Assembly (NCBI GenBank): GCA_017455605.1
Contig: JAFSZO010000028.1
Coordinates: 1 to 39,904 of the forward strand
From: Clostridia bacterium
GTDB lineage: Bacteria > Bacillota > Clostridia > Christensenellales > CAG-1252
Reading direction: 5' to 3'
Length of the DNA stretch: 39,904 bases
Shown piece after piece: positions 15,672 to 28,932 of the stretch. The stretch's first letter is position 1. Each line of letters begins with the position of its first letter. A program made the translations under genes and the position numbers. The notes beneath the pieces are model-generated. The model made no database searches and was not told the DNA's origin. It was given only the letters and a program-made list of their open reading frames with translations.

Positions 15672-15778
15672 GAATGCGGAATTCGGAATGCGGAATGCGG
15701 AATTGCGGACGCCAAAGGCGGGAGCAAAAAGAATGAACGGAAACCATTCCAATTAGGAATTAGGAATTAGGAATTAGG
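15672..15778. repeat. Heptamer tandem repeats (GAATGCG-type and AATTAGG-type)
   Basis: Right after the stop at 15671, 15672-15708 is built of heptamers GAATGCG, GAATTCG, GAATGCG, GAATGCG and a variant. At 15751-15778 there are four perfect copies of AATTAGG. Both tracts share the 7-bp period and a GAAT/AATT core. A similar GAATGCG tract occurs at 18364-18395. Confidence 0.9.
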
Positions 15779-15822
15779 TATGAAGGGTCGCCTACGGCTC
15801 CGAAAGAGAAACAACGTACGTT

Positions 15823-16089
15823 GATCGCGGAGAATGGTAAAATACAAACACAAGAGCCCGCAGAAGGGTTGCAGCAGCAATGCTCGGCAAAATGATATAC
15901 ATATCGATCGCGGAGAATGGTGTAAAGAAAGAACACAAGAGTCTGCAGATGGACCACGGGCACGAAGCTCTGCAAAAAATATACGTGTCGATCGCGGAGA
16001 ATGGTAAAATACAAACACAAGAGCCCGCAGAAGGGCCATCGATGCGAGGCTCGGCAAAAATGATATACATATCGATCGCGGAGAATGGT
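15823..16089. repeat. 84-bp tandem repeat array
   Basis: The 16-mer GATCGCGGAGAATGGT occurs at 15823, 15906, 15990 and 16074, with spacings of 83, 84 and 84 bp. Units 1 and 3 are nearly identical between the 16-mers (AAAATACAAACACAAGAGC, then CCGCAGAAGGG), while unit 2 is a diverged version. The last 16-mer is also the end of the 125-bp inverted-repeat element. The spacers are related to each other, unlike CRISPR spacers. This region (15672-16210) has no convincing gene; the minus-strand ORFs across it merely translate the repeat. Confidence 0.88.
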
Positions 16090-16196
16090 GTCGAGACGAG
16101 CGCTCTTCGAGGAGGCGGGCAGGCGCGTACTTCGTGTACGTAACTGCTCGACGAGGAGATAGTTAGCGAAGTATCAACGCCGTTATACGCGATCGA
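16072..16196 (-). repeat. 125-bp inverted-repeat element, copy C
   Basis: Bounded by TCGATCGCG (16072-16080) and CGCGATCGA (16188-16196), a perfect 9-bp terminal inverted repeat. The central hairpin CGTAC-ttcgt-GTACG is at 16126-16140. On the minus strand it lies 56 nt from the start and 54 nt from the end, as in the other copies. The element ends 15 bp before the MFS start codon, immediately before its ribosome binding site. Confidence 0.8.
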
Positions 16197-16210
16197 AGAA
16201 AGGAGAAAGG

Positions 16211-18028
16211 ATGAAACTGAATTACAAAAAGACTATTAAGGTCGGTCTCGCATTTGGGATCATTATGCTGTTCTGGACAGCGTACGATTTCGTCGTACCT
16301 CTCCTCCTGGAGCGGGCGTTCGGTCTCTCGAACAGCCTGCGCGGCGTGGTCATGGGCATCGACAACATCCTGTCTCTCTTCCTCCTGCCCATCTTCGGCA
16401 AGTGGTCTGACAACGTCAACTCCCGTCGAGGCAAGCGCACCCCCTTCGTCTTCTTCGGGACGATCCTGTCGGTCGTCATTATGATCTTCGTGCCCATCAC
16501 GGCGTCCTCTCAGCTAAAGGACGCGACGGCTCTCCGGAATGAGATCTACGCGGTGGAGAGCACGGCGGATTTTACTTACACGGCGTCGGACGGTAGGGCC
16601 TATGAATCCTCGGAGCAGTTCTATCGTATGATGTACGAGACCCCCGCGGCGTCGGGCGTCGGCTATGCTTACTCCGATCACGACTATCTGAAACTCAACG
16701 ATAAGAACTCCTTGGAGGCGTATCTCGCCGTCGCGAATTACGGCGTGACCGAGATCGAGAAGGACGGCGGCAAGTATTACCGCATCGAGACCGTCGTCTC
16801 GGATGGGACGCGCATCTCGGACAAGGTGGAGATCACCGAAGAGGAATACGACGAGATCAAGGTACATAACGAAGAGTATCAAAAGTTCGTCGAGCCGGGC
16901 ATCGCGGTCTTTGCGAGCGAGGAAGTGAACGTGAAGATCACCAAGGTGCATCCCGAACGCATCGGCGTCTATCTCGCGGTGCTCTTCCTTGTGTTGGTCG
17001 CGATGGCGAGCTTCCGTTCGCCCGCGGTCGCCCTGATGCCCGACGTGACTCCCAAGCCGCTCCGCTCCCAAGCCAACGCGATGATCAACCTGATGGGCGG
17101 CATTGGCGGCGCGCTCGCCTTCGTGATCTACACCGTCGGATTCCTCTTGGCGGAGAATCCCTTCGTGCAGATCTTTGCGGCGGTGGCTGCGGGTATGGTC
17201 GCCTTGCTCGTGGCGTTCCTCTTGCTCGTCAACGAGCCGAAGTACGTCGAGGAATGCCGCGAAGAGTGCGCCAAATACGGCATCAGTAACGACGACGAAG
17301 CGGTGGAGATCCACAGCGAGAAACAGCATACGGACAATCAGGAAGAGCAGGGCGCGGAGCCCCTCTCCGCCGAGGAGATCGCCCTCGCGAAAAAGAAGCA
17401 CGAGCGCGCCTTCAAGCGCAGTTTCTTCTTCATCCTCGCGTCGACCTTTATGTGGTTCATGGGCTACAACGCGATCTCGAGCAACCTGTCCGTCTACTGC
17501 ACCAAGGTGCTGAATCAGTCGGCGGCGGTCGCCTCCGTGATCTCGGGCGTGTCGATGGCGGTCTCGGCGATCGCCTTCATCCCCGTCGGGATGCTCGCCG
17601 TGAAGATCGGCAGGCGCAAGAGCGTGTTGCTCGGCTTCGGGCTGTCCGTCGTGTCCTTCGTGTTGGTCTTCCTCTTCGTGAAGCCGGACAACCTCGCAAA
17701 GTACCTCTTCGCCATCTTTTACCTGATCTCGGGCTTCGGGCTCATCATCACCAACGTGAACACCTTCCCGATGGTACTGGAGCTGTCCTCCTCGTCGAGC
17801 GTGGGCAAATACACGGGCTACTACTACATCTCCACGATGAGCGCGCAAGCCATCACCCCCTTCATCTCGGGCTTGGTGATGGACTACTTCGAGGATCAAT
17901 ATCTGTTCCTCTATTCCGCCGTCTGCGTGGTGATCGCCTTCGTGTTTATGTTCTTCACGAGGTACGGTGATTCCAAACCCGTGCCTGCGGCGTCGGCGCT
18001 GGAATACCTCGGCGCGGGCGACGATTGA
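16211..18028 (+). CDS. MFS transporter (GPH/SLC45-like) with large outer loop
   Basis: A 605-aa secondary transporter with about twelve membrane segments. The N-terminal half has the pattern of the sugar-cation symporter (GPH) and SLC45 branches: FWTAYDFVVPLLLE, VMGIDNILSLFLLPIFGKWSD and the cytoplasmic loop RRGKRTPF between helices 2 and 3. The substrate is unknown, with a glycoside or sugar a reasonable guess. An insert of about 155 residues (roughly residues 98-252) lies between helices 3 and 4, on the outer face if the topology is standard; it is hydrophilic and Tyr/Glu-rich (YTASDGRAYESSEQF, EITEEEYDEIKVHNEEYQKF). The central cytoplasmic loop (about 345-400) is charged. It stands alone between repeat elements; AAGGAG lies 6 nt before the ATG. 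Confidence 0.88.
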   Translation: MKLNYKKTIKVGLAFGIIMLFWTAYDFVVPLLLERAFGLSNSLRGVVMGIDNILSLFLLPIFGKWSDNVNSRRGKRTPFVFFGTILSVVIMIFVPITASSQLKDATALRNEIYAVESTADFTYTASDGRAYESSEQFYRMMYETPAASGVGYAYSDHDYLKLNDKNSLEAYLAVANYGVTEIEKDGGKYYRIETVVSDGTRISDKVEITEEEYDEIKVHNEEYQKFVEPGIAVFASEEVNVKITKVHPERIGVYLAVLFLVLVAMASFRSPAVALMPDVTPKPLRSQANAMINLMGGIGGALAFVIYTVGFLLAENPFVQIFAAVAAGMVALLVAFLLLVNEPKYVEECREECAKYGISNDDEAVEIHSEKQHTDNQEEQGAEPLSAEEIALAKKKHERAFKRSFFFILASTFMWFMGYNAISSNLSVYCTKVLNQSAAVASVISGVSMAVSAIAFIPVGMLAVKIGRRKSVLLGFGLSVVSFVLVFLFVKPDNLAKYLFAIFYLISGFGLIITNVNTFPMVLELSSSSSVGKYTGYYYISTMSAQAITPFISGLVMDYFEDQYLFLYSAVCVVIAFVFMFFTRYGDSKPVPAASALEYLGAGDD

Positions 18029-18157
18029 CGTGGGCTTCGTATATCGCGCAACTTCTTCGTTGCTTGACTTCGCGTCGGCGAAATCACGTACAAGGAGTAC
18101 GCTCATTCGTCGCCGCTCGTCGTGCCTCGAATTTGCATCAATCTCCGAAGCCCACGT
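18028..18157 (+). repeat. 125-bp inverted-repeat element, copy A
   Basis: ACGTGGGCTTCG (18028-18039) and CGAAGCCCACGT (18146-18157) form a perfect 12-bp terminal inverted repeat; the first base is the last base of the MFS stop codon. The core hairpin CGTAC-aagga-GTACG is at 18087-18101, and an outer CGGCGA/TCGCCG stem can surround it. Trimmed to the 126 bp that align with copy B, the core offsets are 57 and 54 nt. No T-run follows, so it does not look like a simple terminator. Confidence 0.82.
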
Positions 18158-18210
18158 GGGTGGGGATAGAGTGATTGCCTGATGAGCACCGCTCTCCGCA
18201 CTCTCGACAG

Positions 18211-18335
18211 ATGGACTTTGCATATTGCGCAATGGCTGTGTTCCTGTCTGCGGGTTTGCGACATCACGTACAAGGAGTACGCTCAATCGCAACCCCTTGC
18301 CGAGCCTTGCCCTTGCATCAATCTGCAAAGTCCAT
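18211..18335 (+). repeat. 125-bp inverted-repeat element, copy B
   Basis: ATGGACTTTGCA (18211-18222) and TGCAAAGTCCAT (18324-18335) form a perfect 12-bp terminal inverted repeat. The core hairpin CGTAC-aagga-GTACG is at 18267-18281, enclosed by GGGTTTGCGA/TCGCAACCC pairing with one bulge. The stretches CATATTGCGCAA and TTGCATCAATCT align with TATATCGCGCAA and TTGCATCAATCT of copy A, while both pairs of stems differ in sequence but remain complementary. Confidence 0.82.
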
Positions 18336-18363
18336 TGGACGTAATGGGAAAAACGATTCCGTC

Positions 18364-18395
18364 TAATGCGGAATGCAGAATGCGGAATGCGGAAT
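18364..18395. repeat. GAATGCG heptamer tract
   Basis: Heptamers GAATGCA, GAATGCG and GAATGCG preceded by TAATGCG, the same repeat as at 15672. It is followed by GGGTCGCGTCGCTCCGAAA, which matches GGGTCGCCTACGGCTCCGAAA at 15784-15804. The two intergenic regions therefore share the order heptamers, box, repeat units, 125-bp element, gene. Confidence 0.85.
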
Positions 18396-18442
18396 AGAGG
18401 GTCGCGTCGCTCCGAAAAAACAGAAAGGCATTCCCGCAGGTC

Positions 18443-18533
18443 GATTGCGGAGAATGGTGTAAAGAACAAACCGAAGAGCCCGCAGGGTTCCGAATATGAA
18501 AAAAATATATCATCACACCATCCTATCAAACAG
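18443..18533. repeat. Single unit of the 84-bp repeat family
   Basis: GATTGCGGAGAATGGT at 18443-18458 is followed by GTAAAGAACAAACCGAAGAGC and CCGCAGGG, matching the units at 15823-16089. The next 16-mer starts at 18537, so this unit is 94 bp. The interval 18029-18670 contains no gene; it holds copies A and B, the heptamer tract, this unit and copy D. Confidence 0.8.
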
Positions 18534-18660
18534 GTCGATTGCGGAGAATGGTGTGGAGACAAGCGCTCTTTGACGAAACGAGCAGGCGCGTACTCCTTGT
18601 ACGTAACTGCGAGGCGAGGAGATAGTTAGCGCAGGATACGCGCCGTTATACGCGATCGAC
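18534..18660 (-). repeat. 125-bp inverted-repeat element, copy D
   Basis: GTCGATTGCG (18534-18543) pairs with CGCGATCGAC (18651-18660) over 10 bp with one G-U wobble. The core hairpin CGTAC-tcctt-GTACG is at 18589-18603. Taken as 18535-18659 (125 bp), the core offsets are again 56 and 54 nt on the minus strand. It is about 80% identical to copy C by eye and ends 10 bp before the next start codon, against its AGGAGG site. Confidence 0.82.
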
Positions 18661-18670
18661 AGGAGGGAAT

Positions 18671-19495
18671 ATGGGTTTTGATTGTGAATTAGTCGGCAAA
18701 GTCGGCTCAATGGCGCTCATCGACAAAAAGCGCAACGCGCTCAGCTACGACACCGTCGCGCGAATTTCGCAGGACCTGCGTCCCGGTGACATTTGGGTCA
18801 CGTCGGGCGCGGTGGAGGTCGGCAGGCTCGACTACGTGAAGCGAAACGGATGCGAGATCGAGGGGGACGACGAATCGGTGAAGACCGATTACAGCGCGCA
18901 GGGACAGACCGTGCTGATGAACACCTATCGGCAGTTCATCGACCCGAAGTACAGCGTGCGGCAGATCCTCGTGGAGCATCAACACTTCAACGATCCCGAG
19001 AAGCGGGAGCACCTGCACGGGCTGCTCGTGCGTTCGATGAAGCAGGGCGCGATCCCCATCATCAATTACAACGACGCGGTCAGCTGTGAGGAGACGCGCA
19101 ACCTCGAGATCCGCAACCTCAAGCTGAAGTCGGCGCACGTCGTTCAATGCGTGGACAACGACGAGACAGCCTCCCAAATCGCCTGTCTGATGAAGGCGGA
19201 GACGCTGCTCATCATGACCTCGACCGAGGGCATCTATCTCGACAGCAAGGACAAGTCCACCCTCGTCCCCGTGATCGGCGGCAAGGATATCTACGAGCTC
19301 ATCAAGAACGTCGAATACCATCAGACCCTCTGCGAGGGCGCGAGCCGCAAGGGGGCGAACGGCGCCTACGCCAAGCTCGAGTACATCAAAGAGCCCCTGA
19401 AAAACGGCACGACCGTCATCATCGGTAGCTCCTTCTATACGATCCGCGAGCTACTCTCCGGCGCCGCGCCGCGGACGATCATCAAGGTGAACTGA
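18671..19495 (+). CDS. Amino-acid kinase family protein, glutamate 5-kinase-like
   Basis: A 274-aa cytoplasmic kinase of the amino-acid kinase fold. KVGSMAL, VTSGAVEVGR, AQGQ, NYNDAVS, VDNDETASQIACLM and TSTEGIYL correspond in order to the conserved blocks of glutamate 5-kinase (ProB), which makes gamma-glutamyl phosphate for proline synthesis. It lacks the C-terminal PUA domain of many ProB proteins and no proA is in the window, so another acyl-phosphate-forming substrate is possible. It starts at an ATG with AGGAGGG 3 nt upstream, directly after element D, and ends at an intrinsic terminator. It is a single-gene unit. Confidence 0.78.
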   Translation: MGFDCELVGKVGSMALIDKKRNALSYDTVARISQDLRPGDIWVTSGAVEVGRLDYVKRNGCEIEGDDESVKTDYSAQGQTVLMNTYRQFIDPKYSVRQILVEHQHFNDPEKREHLHGLLVRSMKQGAIPIINYNDAVSCEETRNLEIRNLKLKSAHVVQCVDNDETASQIACLMKAETLLIMTSTEGIYLDSKDKSTLVPVIGGKDIYELIKNVEYHQTLCEGASRKGANGAYAKLEYIKEPLKNGTTVIIGSSFYTIRELLSGAAPRTIIKVN

Positions 19496-27246: not shown

Positions 27247-28794
27247 ATGGCGAAACTCCACGCGATCGTCATTATGGACGGCTTCGGGATCAATCCCGAA
27301 GTGAAAGGCAACGCGATCAAGCAGGCGGGTACCCCCTTCATCGACTATCTGATGAAGACCTACCCGACGACGCAGATCGGCGCGAGCGGACTGTCCGTAG
27401 GTCTCCCCGACGGGCAGATGGGCAACAGTGAAGTCGGACATACGAACATCGGCGCGGGCAGGGTGGTCTATCAGGAACTCACCCGCATCACCCTCGCCGT
27501 GCAGGACGGTTCGATCGGGAGTAATCCCGCCATCGTCGCCGCGATGGACAACGCGAAGGACGGCAAGGCTCTCCACTTGATGGGGCTCCTGTCGTCGGGC
27601 GGCGTGCACAGTCACATCGACCACCTCTTCGGACTCCTGAAGGCGGCGAAGGAACGCGGCGTAGAAAAGGTCTATCTTCATTGCTTTATGGACGGACGCG
27701 ACGTCTCCCCGACCAGCGGCGTAGGCTTTATGCAGGAGCTCGTCGACTATATCAAATCGATCGACAGCCCCGCGAAGGTCGCCACCATCACGGGCAGATT
27801 CTACGCGATGGACCGCGACAACGCTTGGGACAGGGTGCAGAAGGCGTACGATATGATGACCCTCGGCGAGGGCATCAAGGAGACCGATCCCGTCGCGGCG
27901 ATGCGGCATAGCTATGCGAACGACAAGACCGACGAATTCGTGCTGCCGACCGTTATCACCGATGCGGCGGGCGATCCCGTCGGCAAGGTCAAGGCAGGGG
28001 ACAGCATCGTCTTCTACAACTTCCGCCCCGACCGCGCGCGTCAGATCACGCAGGCATTCATCTATCCCGATTTCTCCTCTTTTGAGAGGAAGACGGGATT
28101 TCTCGCGCCGAAGTACGTCTCGATGACGAGCTACAAGGCGGAGTTCGAGCCCTATCTCGACGTGGCGTTCAAGCCCACGGGGCTCGAAAATACCTTCGGC
28201 GAGTATATCTCCAAACAGGGCTTCAAGCAGCTCCGCATTGCGGAGACGCAGAAGTACGCGCATGTGACCTTCTTCTTCAACGGCGGCAACGAGACTCCCT
28301 ACGCGGGAGAGGACAGGGTGCTGATCCCCTCGCCGAACGTCGAGACCTTCGACATGAAGCCGGAAATGAGCGCGCCCGAGATCACGGACAAGGCGATCGA
28401 GCTGATCCGCGAAAAGAAGTACGACGTGATGGTGCTGAACTACGCCAACTGCGATATGGTCGGACACACCGGCATTATGGATGCGGCGATGAAAGCGGTC
28501 ACCACGGTGGACGCCTCCGTCAAGCGCTTGATCGAGGCGATCCTCGAGGCGGGCGGCATGGCGATCGTCACCGCCGACCACGGAAATGCCGACGTCATGA
28601 TCGCGGAGGACGGCTCCCCGATGACGGCGCACTCCTTGAACCCCGTGCCCTTCATCTTGGTGGACGACCGCTACAAGGGCAGGTCGCTCGCCTCGGGCGG
28701 CGTGCTGGCGGATATCACCCCGACTTTGCTCGACGTGATGGGCGTGGCGCAACCTGCCGAAATGACGGGTCGCTCGCTGATCGAGAAAGCGTAA
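27247..28794 (+). CDS. gpmI: 2,3-bisphosphoglycerate-independent phosphoglycerate mutase
   Basis: A 515-aa manganese-dependent enzyme of the alkaline phosphatase superfamily converting 3- to 2-phosphoglycerate. IMDGFGI holds the first metal-binding Asp (residue 11), GNSEVGHTNIGAG carries the phosphorylated Ser (about 61), VYLHCFMDGRDVSP and YAMDRDNAWDR form the inserted phosphotransferase domain, and NYANCDMVGHTG and TADHGNAD supply the second metal site. It is the last gene of the glycolytic operon; the coding end runs into a copy of the CGTAC core hairpin. Confidence 0.98.
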   Translation: MAKLHAIVIMDGFGINPEVKGNAIKQAGTPFIDYLMKTYPTTQIGASGLSVGLPDGQMGNSEVGHTNIGAGRVVYQELTRITLAVQDGSIGSNPAIVAAMDNAKDGKALHLMGLLSSGGVHSHIDHLFGLLKAAKERGVEKVYLHCFMDGRDVSPTSGVGFMQELVDYIKSIDSPAKVATITGRFYAMDRDNAWDRVQKAYDMMTLGEGIKETDPVAAMRHSYANDKTDEFVLPTVITDAAGDPVGKVKAGDSIVFYNFRPDRARQITQAFIYPDFSSFERKTGFLAPKYVSMTSYKAEFEPYLDVAFKPTGLENTFGEYISKQGFKQLRIAETQKYAHVTFFFNGGNETPYAGEDRVLIPSPNVETFDMKPEMSAPEITDKAIELIREKKYDVMVLNYANCDMVGHTGIMDAAMKAVTTVDASVKRLIEAILEAGGMAIVTADHGNADVMIAEDGSPMTAHSLNPVPFILVDDRYKGRSLASGGVLADITPTLLDVMGVAQPAEMTGRSLIEKA

Positions 28795-28822
28795 GCAGCC
28801 CTATCCTTCACTACCACTACGA

Positions 28823-28861
28823 GGGGGAGCAGTTACGTACGCGGAGTACGCGCCTGCTCCC
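28823..28861 (+). repeat. Core hairpin of the 125-bp element family, copy E
   Basis: CGTAC-gcgga-GTACG at 28836-28850, enclosed by a perfect GGGAGCAG/CTGCTCCC stem. GTACGCGCCTGCTC is identical to copy D on its minus strand. CGATCGA occurs at 28903-28909, about where the family end is expected, but a full terminal inverted repeat would reach into gpmI and pairs poorly, so this copy is called only as a core. Confidence 0.65.
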
Positions 28862-28932
28862 TCTCTTCGAGAAGGGCGCGGCACCGCCCCGCCTACCTGC
28901 GGCGATCGACCGACACATTACAAAGGAGAAGC

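Follow-up and report, generated by a model that had tools for sequence, protein, structure and literature searches.

The stretch of DNA analysed here (the window) comprises 39,904 nucleotides of contig JAFSZO010000028.1 from a Clostridia bacterium (Christensenellales; CAG-1252; GenBank assembly GCA_017455605.1). Four copies of an element of about 125 bp lie around its MFS gene: element C occupies the interval between that gene and a DUF2344 gene, A and B follow the MFS gene, and D lies before a gene for a proB-like amino-acid kinase (Table 1). A first-pass annotation, made from the sequence alone, had described the four at the places where the covariance model now sets their limits, and had offered non-autonomous mobile elements, REP-like elements and a structured RNA class as possible identities. 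All four are real, with the correction that A and B are oriented opposite to C and D. They belong to a large family of repeats, which probably are short non-autonomous mobile DNA elements of the MITE (miniature inverted-repeat transposable element) or ERIC kind.

A dispersed repeat family in Christensenellales

The exact core of the elements, CGTAC-N5-GTACG, occurs five times in the window, in A, B, C and D and in a decayed copy at 28836. When one mismatch was allowed, six matches were found against 0.84 expected, a number reached in 0 of 100 shuffles. Each of the four elements folds on its better strand with a z score of -4.6 to -6.2 relative to dinucleotide shuffles.

Element A, used as a DNA query against the window's own assembly (G000; 1,262,483 bases in 125 contigs, 74.66% complete), returned 46 matches. 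A covariance model of 130 positions built from 27 copies (R1) found 89 matches in the same assembly at E values up to 0.1. Within the genus, the 12 other genomes gave 3 to 65 each; within the order, 85 of 297 genomes, from 34 of 125 genera, had one or more. Public records with the core pattern have titles mostly of rumen and gut Clostridia and of ‘Christensenella sp.’ metagenome-assembled genomes (MAGs). The search of the genome and its relatives with such a model, which the first-pass annotation had proposed, thus revealed many further copies of a dispersed family. A scan of the window with Rfam, likewise proposed there, gave no family at the gathering score, and a literature search found nothing on such repeats in Christensenellales. 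The family is large, real and, as far as could be searched, apparently undescribed in Clostridia. As regards Clostridia, the earlier statement that no named family was recognised is justified, but in architecture the elements correspond to the ERIC-type enterobacterial repeats.

Structure and covariation

The element is one long imperfect hairpin of about 125 bp, with terminal arms of about 10 bp, a TATA/TCTC internal loop, two inner stems and the apex CGTAC-N5-GTACG. Across 141 distinct copies, 91.0% of the cells in paired columns were paired, compared with 71.2% after shuffling, although the alignment was fitted to the structure with the model and the percentage is inflated by this. The covariation score was 0.520 against 0.167 for shuffled alignments, with 0 of 500 shuffles scoring as high and slid controls at or below 0.098. 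Both sides vary in all 10 terminal pairs. The central hairpin hardly varies, and 99.6% of its cells are paired. The covarying terminal stems and near-invariant core described for four copies were therefore confirmed over the whole set. The terminal repeats do differ between copies, as had been said, but they share a loose consensus, NCGACNGCG, and hence are not wholly free in sequence.

Counted from the inner end of the arm outward, the frequency of Watson-Crick pairing is 0.91-0.97 at positions 1-7 and 0.83, 0.78 and 0.66 at positions 8-10; it then falls to the background level (0.33 at position 11 and 0.24 at position 12), so that the arm has a sharp limit at about 10 bp. Mismatches within the arms comprise 33 G-T cells (0.23 of the shuffled level), 42 A-C cells (0.28) and 89 others (0.23). 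Arm pairing is almost strictly Watson-Crick, and G-U is tolerated no more than A-C. With G-T no commoner than A-C, the arms do not look like the product of an RNA compensating one base at a time by way of G-U.

The inner stems have kept A-C cells more often than G-T cells (0.45 and 0.23 of the shuffled level, respectively). Such A-C cells are G-U on the other strand, and the bottom strand is accordingly the better folder: it folded better in 70 of 70 copies (mean -64.8 versus -52.6 kcal/mol; z -7.3 versus -5.1) and, with DNA parameters, in 136 of 141. If either strand works as a folded molecule it would therefore be the bottom one. The strand data fit a folded RNA and a folded DNA alike, and do not decide between them. 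Most copies have the better-folding strand antisense to the gene beside them; in others, C and D among them, it is sense.

Position at gene ends

Gene context was surveyed in about 570 kb of the window's own assembly, in stretches picked for bearing elements and with genes called by a simple codon model made for this analysis. Among 67 full copies, 65 were free of predicted genes and two overlapped one, and in most of the 67 the left end adjoins the 3' end of a co-directional gene. In a set of 139 copies from several genomes, an open reading frame (ORF) of at least 60 codons ended near 106; in 92 of these 106 the stop codon ended within -7 to +13 of the inner end of the arm. The element's own TATAA or TATAG serves as the stop in 25 copies, and most of the others have their stop right before the arm or within it. 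A right end adjoining a gene was seen in one case only. In C and D the left end faces a start region rather than a stop codon. The placement at stop codons is the same for elements in other families of the order.

At two gene ends (L144, 6783; L150, 17740) the terminal codons of the gene resemble an older left arm followed by TATAA, with a new full element directly after. This arrangement suggests repeated insertion at one point, with protein C-termini derived from the elements.

Presence and absence within the genus

The site of element C is filled in G000 and in one other genome (G004). In five further genomes (G001, G002, G006, G008 and G010) it holds no element and the DUF2344 and MFS genes lie close together. 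The search for empty sites suggested by the first-pass annotation thus yielded filled and empty C sites between species of the genus. After the stop codon of the MFS gene (the site of A) most species have an element, with differing arms and interiors. At other orthologous stop codons an element was found in 23 of 44 comparisons, a figure inflated by the choice of loci, most of which had been fetched for bearing the core. At one site common to two loci (L236 and L261) the arms differ by a single compensated pair and the interiors belong to different subfamilies. Another tandem repeat, AACTTCACTG..., occupies the C site before the MFS gene in two sister species (L121 of G005 and L124 of G012).

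Right-half copies

Beside 66 full copies, the surveyed 570 kb contain 38 right-only and eight left-only fragments. Many of the right-only fragments are found downstream of a full copy and have their start close to the apex or at the inner stem. Their arms resemble that of the full copy at the same locus, with 8 or more of 10 bases matching in 42% of 45 pairs, compared with 8% when arms from other loci are used, and the observed mean similarity was reached in 0 of 5,000 permutations. Plain tandem duplication accounts for some right-half copies (e.g., L148, 5980-6830). A second palindromic repeat, CGCCGCCAACACCCCACAAAATC...GATTTTGCGTGGACCCCAACGGCGG, is present in or beside right-half modules (L157, 6080-6730; L145, 10540-11420).

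Similar repeats outside Clostridia

The core pattern was also matched in genomes of Arcobacter, Aliarcobacter, Magnetococcales and Cocleimonas. R1 gave one match in each of these genomes, aligned end to end at 24-41 bits, about 20 of which come from the core alone. A match in IMG/VR led to copies in E. coli, Salmonella and a Yersinia phage; four other viral-contig matches (L274-L276 and L280) were confined to the core at 20 bits each and were taken as chance. Plasmid searches with two proteobacterial copies gave no match.

These GTAC-type repeats of E. coli and Salmonella share with the Clostridial family the core TCACGTAC-N-GTACGCTC, a single hairpin (about 142 bp), variable paired arms, a left end at stop codons and polymorphism between strains; they differ in having few copies per genome and an interior that cannot be aligned beyond the core. 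They are possibly the RSA or BEE95 sequences, names taken from the title of a reference (PMC3751351). Places similar to the copy between ucpA and cysP number a median of five per E. coli genome. The ucpA-cysP site is filled in about 1,377 genomes and the hemE-nfi site in at most 294 of 5,370.

The hemE-nfi site provides a clean comparison of filled and empty states. The empty site reads CCGCTAAGGAG (longer stretch, CACCGCTAAGGAG), and the filled site reads CCGCTAAG (longer stretch, CACCGCTAAG) followed by a 142-bp unit, AGCCTGGTCCATCAGGC...GCCTGTTGAACCAGGCT, and then CTAAGGAG. The unit is flanked by a 5-bp repeat, CTAAG, which includes the hemE stop codon. The variable arms therefore belong to the unit that moved. 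Copies after yheS, dnaN and ffh in Salmonella and E. coli likewise start at the stop codon. At ucpA-cysP, the element-free states differ from each other (L329/L330): one resembles a deletion between TCTT direct repeats, and the other has several target changes, with CCCGG for CTAAG.

The ERIC repeats (also IRU or RU-1) are alike in length (127 bp in the copies read here), in forming a long imperfect hairpin, in being intergenic and non-autonomous, and in having TA at their ends. Their central dyad, TCACTTAC-N-GTAAGCTC, resembles the Clostridial TCACGTAC-N5-GTACGCTC, and the corresponding strand folds better by about 10 kcal/mol; the preference for the bottom strand was seen in three ERIC copies and in 11 of 13 look-alikes of the E. 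coli/Salmonella type. In contrast, the ERIC apex is CTTAC/GTAAG rather than CGTAC-N5-GTACG, so that the family does not match the ERIC consensus, and the terminal inverted repeats of ERIC lack variable covarying arms. Covarying termini and polarity at gene ends are thus the Clostridial family's own marks relative to the ERIC type.

R1 scored the E. coli ucpA copy at 22.6 bits (E 1.5e-4), and profile hidden Markov models (HMMs) linked the E. coli and Clostridial families at E 0.002-0.02 through the core only; neither R1 nor the family HMMs matched any of five ERIC loci. Judged by these profile ties, common descent with the Clostridial family is plausible for the E. coli copies. For ERIC it is unproven. 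The groups may also have converged on a similar hairpin.

Interpretation

Mobile elements are preferred here to a new class of RNA because the E. coli look-alikes were caught as recent insertions. The interpretation also draws on the copy number and spread of the family, the covariation and abrupt end of the arms, their indifference between G-U and A-C, the stabler bottom strand, the placement between genes and at stop codons, and the filled and empty sites within the genus. The Clostridial copies may have moved as those look-alikes did, as one unit with the arms included. The elements would move as, or by way of, single-stranded DNA of the bottom strand in folded form, with the near-invariant apex and the paired, sequence-tolerant arms serving for recognition, and an enzyme encoded elsewhere would mobilise them in trans. 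Insertion would take place between genes with the left end against the coding sequence, usually exactly at the stop codon. Right-half copies downstream would be remnants of earlier copies or tandem duplications, and recombination or template switching that involves the full copy may have kept their arms similar.

Several observations weigh against this interpretation. Over 139 Clostridial copies there was no clear signal of a direct target repeat flanking the element, and a near-palindromic target does not explain the fixed polarity with the left end to the stop codon. A 5-bp target duplication is no special sign of a single-stranded intermediate and would be equally compatible with a DDE transposase, and homology between the Clostridial and E. 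coli repeats rests mainly on core and architecture. Of the 13 genomes of the genus, 9, G000 among them, lack the Y1 transposase (PF01797, RAYT) and 12 lack the reverse transcriptase RVT_1; no integron integrase (TIGR02249) scored above the cut-off in 41 genomes. Such absences from incomplete MAGs are weak singly and consistent across the genus. RAYT, integron integrase and reverse transcriptase are accordingly not supported as the mobiliser; the searches were aimed at these three enzymes, and not at DDE transposases or at serine and other tyrosine recombinases. No transposase gene between left and right element ends was noticed among the matches in the 570 kb, without a genus-wide search for one, and none was found among the 28 ORFs of the window scanned with Pfam, in keeping with the first-pass annotation. 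In most bacterial MITE-like repeats, including ERIC, no matching transposon ends have been identified (PMC2229807).

Of the identities first offered, the non-autonomous mobile element is supported and the structured RNA class disfavoured. The REP-like option is unsupported because Y1 transposases are missing from most of the 13 genomes; although REP/BIME sequences and REPINs with RAYT are also high-copy intergenic palindromes that persist over long times, the present repeat is a single hairpin of about 125 bp and not two REPs. Correia/NEMIS, RUP and other bacterial MITEs are similarly short, non-autonomous intergenic inverted-repeat elements, but their terminal repeats are conserved whereas the Clostridial termini covary.

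A structured RNA selected as such, whether a cis-acting hairpin in 3' untranslated regions or leaders or an antisense RNA from the bottom strand, would account for the strong covariation, for some conserved G-U wobbles in bottom-strand inner stems, for the retention of inner A-C over G-T cells, and for the adjoining of stop codons and, in C and D, of ribosome-binding sites. This reading of the covariation is weakened because the arms are near-strictly Watson-Crick with no preference for G-U, because the better-folding strand is antisense to the gene whose stop codon the element adjoins (though sense to the flanking gene in some copies, such as C and D), and because the arms travel with the E. 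coli insertion. No conserved flanking promoter was seen by eye, Rfam gave no match, and near 90 copies, truncated arrays and presence or absence between species are repeat-like. The first-pass view of pairing-preserving changes as the hallmark of selection on structure was too strong, as covariation alone is no hallmark of RNA selection. A structured RNA is therefore considered unlikely; an RNA role is possible for individual copies and unnecessary for explaining the pattern. A single-stranded recombination site like that of integrons, with a tyrosine recombinase acting on the bottom-strand hairpin, has in its favour the conservation of structure over sequence, the favoured bottom strand, the fixed orientation directly after stop codons and the complementary terminal arms, reported at 9-11 nt in attC (PMC2727003). 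It is nonetheless quite improbable: the genus has no integron integrase above the cut-off, the arms are NCGACNGCG-like and no R' or R'' boxes (RYYYAAC/GTTRRRY) were seen when read off the alignment with no separate scan, the copies are dispersed beside housekeeping genes and not in cassette arrays, and the E. coli insertion leaves a 5-bp repeat.

Alternatively, fold-back or template switching (quasipalindrome correction) might have copied the arms from host sequence, either while the element inserted or later, so that their pairing would be a by-product of mutation and not selected. They do extend into stop codons and sometimes into coding sequence (TCAACTAAAGCGACCGAG/CTCGGTCGCTTTGGTTGA), mismatched intermediates are few, and right-half copies share the local arm. 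But in the one clean filled/empty pair, E. coli hemE-nfi, the arms arrived with the element; moreover, the TATA/TCTC mismatch beside the arms is not erased and the arms show a loose consensus of their own. Copying of the host flank as a general source of arms, attractive for Clostridia, is contradicted by that pair and was rejected, and we give this explanation a low probability. Least probable by far is insertion into, or origin from, intrinsic terminators, whose stem would supply the arms. The arms overlap stop codons and a T-rich stretch follows the right arm in 30 of 119 copies, but three quarters of the copies have none, L236/L261 and L196/L215 have a distinct canonical terminator immediately beyond the element, and two element-free orthologous gene ends (L208, L211) bear an ordinary terminator with an unrelated stem. 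Terminators as the target were rejected because of these downstream terminators and the scarcity of T stretches.

A broader form of the mobile-element interpretation would unite the repeats of Clostridia, Campylobacterota and Proteobacteria, ERIC included, in one ancient superfamily moving as a folded bottom strand, with a nearly invariant GTAC/GTAAG apex through which it is recognised, arms that need only be complementary and fixed polarity to stop codons. This is speculative and rather unlikely; if true, it would represent a mode of single-strand transposition unlike that of IS200/IS605, RAYT/REP or integrons. With near a hundred copies per genome, persistence across the order and E. coli look-alikes that are still polymorphic, the family offers a comparative handle. 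Any proposed enzyme is constrained by paired arms of about 10 bp, a near-invariant apex, strand asymmetry and stop-codon polarity, and laboratory strains of E. coli make these constraints testable. The family also warns against taking strong covariation among intergenic repeats as proof of a functional RNA.

Features of the window

The full copies and fragments in the window are listed in Table 1.

Table 1. Repeat elements and fragments in the window, with scores from the covariance model
Feature	Position	Strand	Description
Element A, full length	18028..18157	+	121.9 bits; left arm ACGTGGGCTTCG starts inside the TGA stop codon of the MFS gene (16211-18028)
Element B, full length	18209..18337	+	119.2 bits; arms ATGGACTTTGCA / TGCAAAGTCCAT
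Element C, full length	16069..16199	-	108.9 bits; MFS start codon 11 bp from left end
Element D, full length	18532..18662	-	100.7 bits; left end adjoins ribosome-binding site of amino-acid kinase gene at 18671 (proB-like)
Tandem right-end fragments downstream of C	15818..16068	-	period ~84 bp; three carry C's arm at their end, CGCGATCGA or nearly so
Right-end fragments downstream of D	18440..18531	-	terminal arm that of D's right end, CGCAATCGAC
Right-end fragment between A and B	18186..18208	+	GAGCACCGCTCTCCGCACTCTCG, by sequence
Decayed fifth copy	28780..28901	+	42.5 bits; core CGTACGCGGAGTACG at 28836-28850

Short simple repeats of GGAATGC or GGAATTA border the element arrays at 15680-15779 and 18370-18398, and are found again in sister genomes (L121, L124 and L132).

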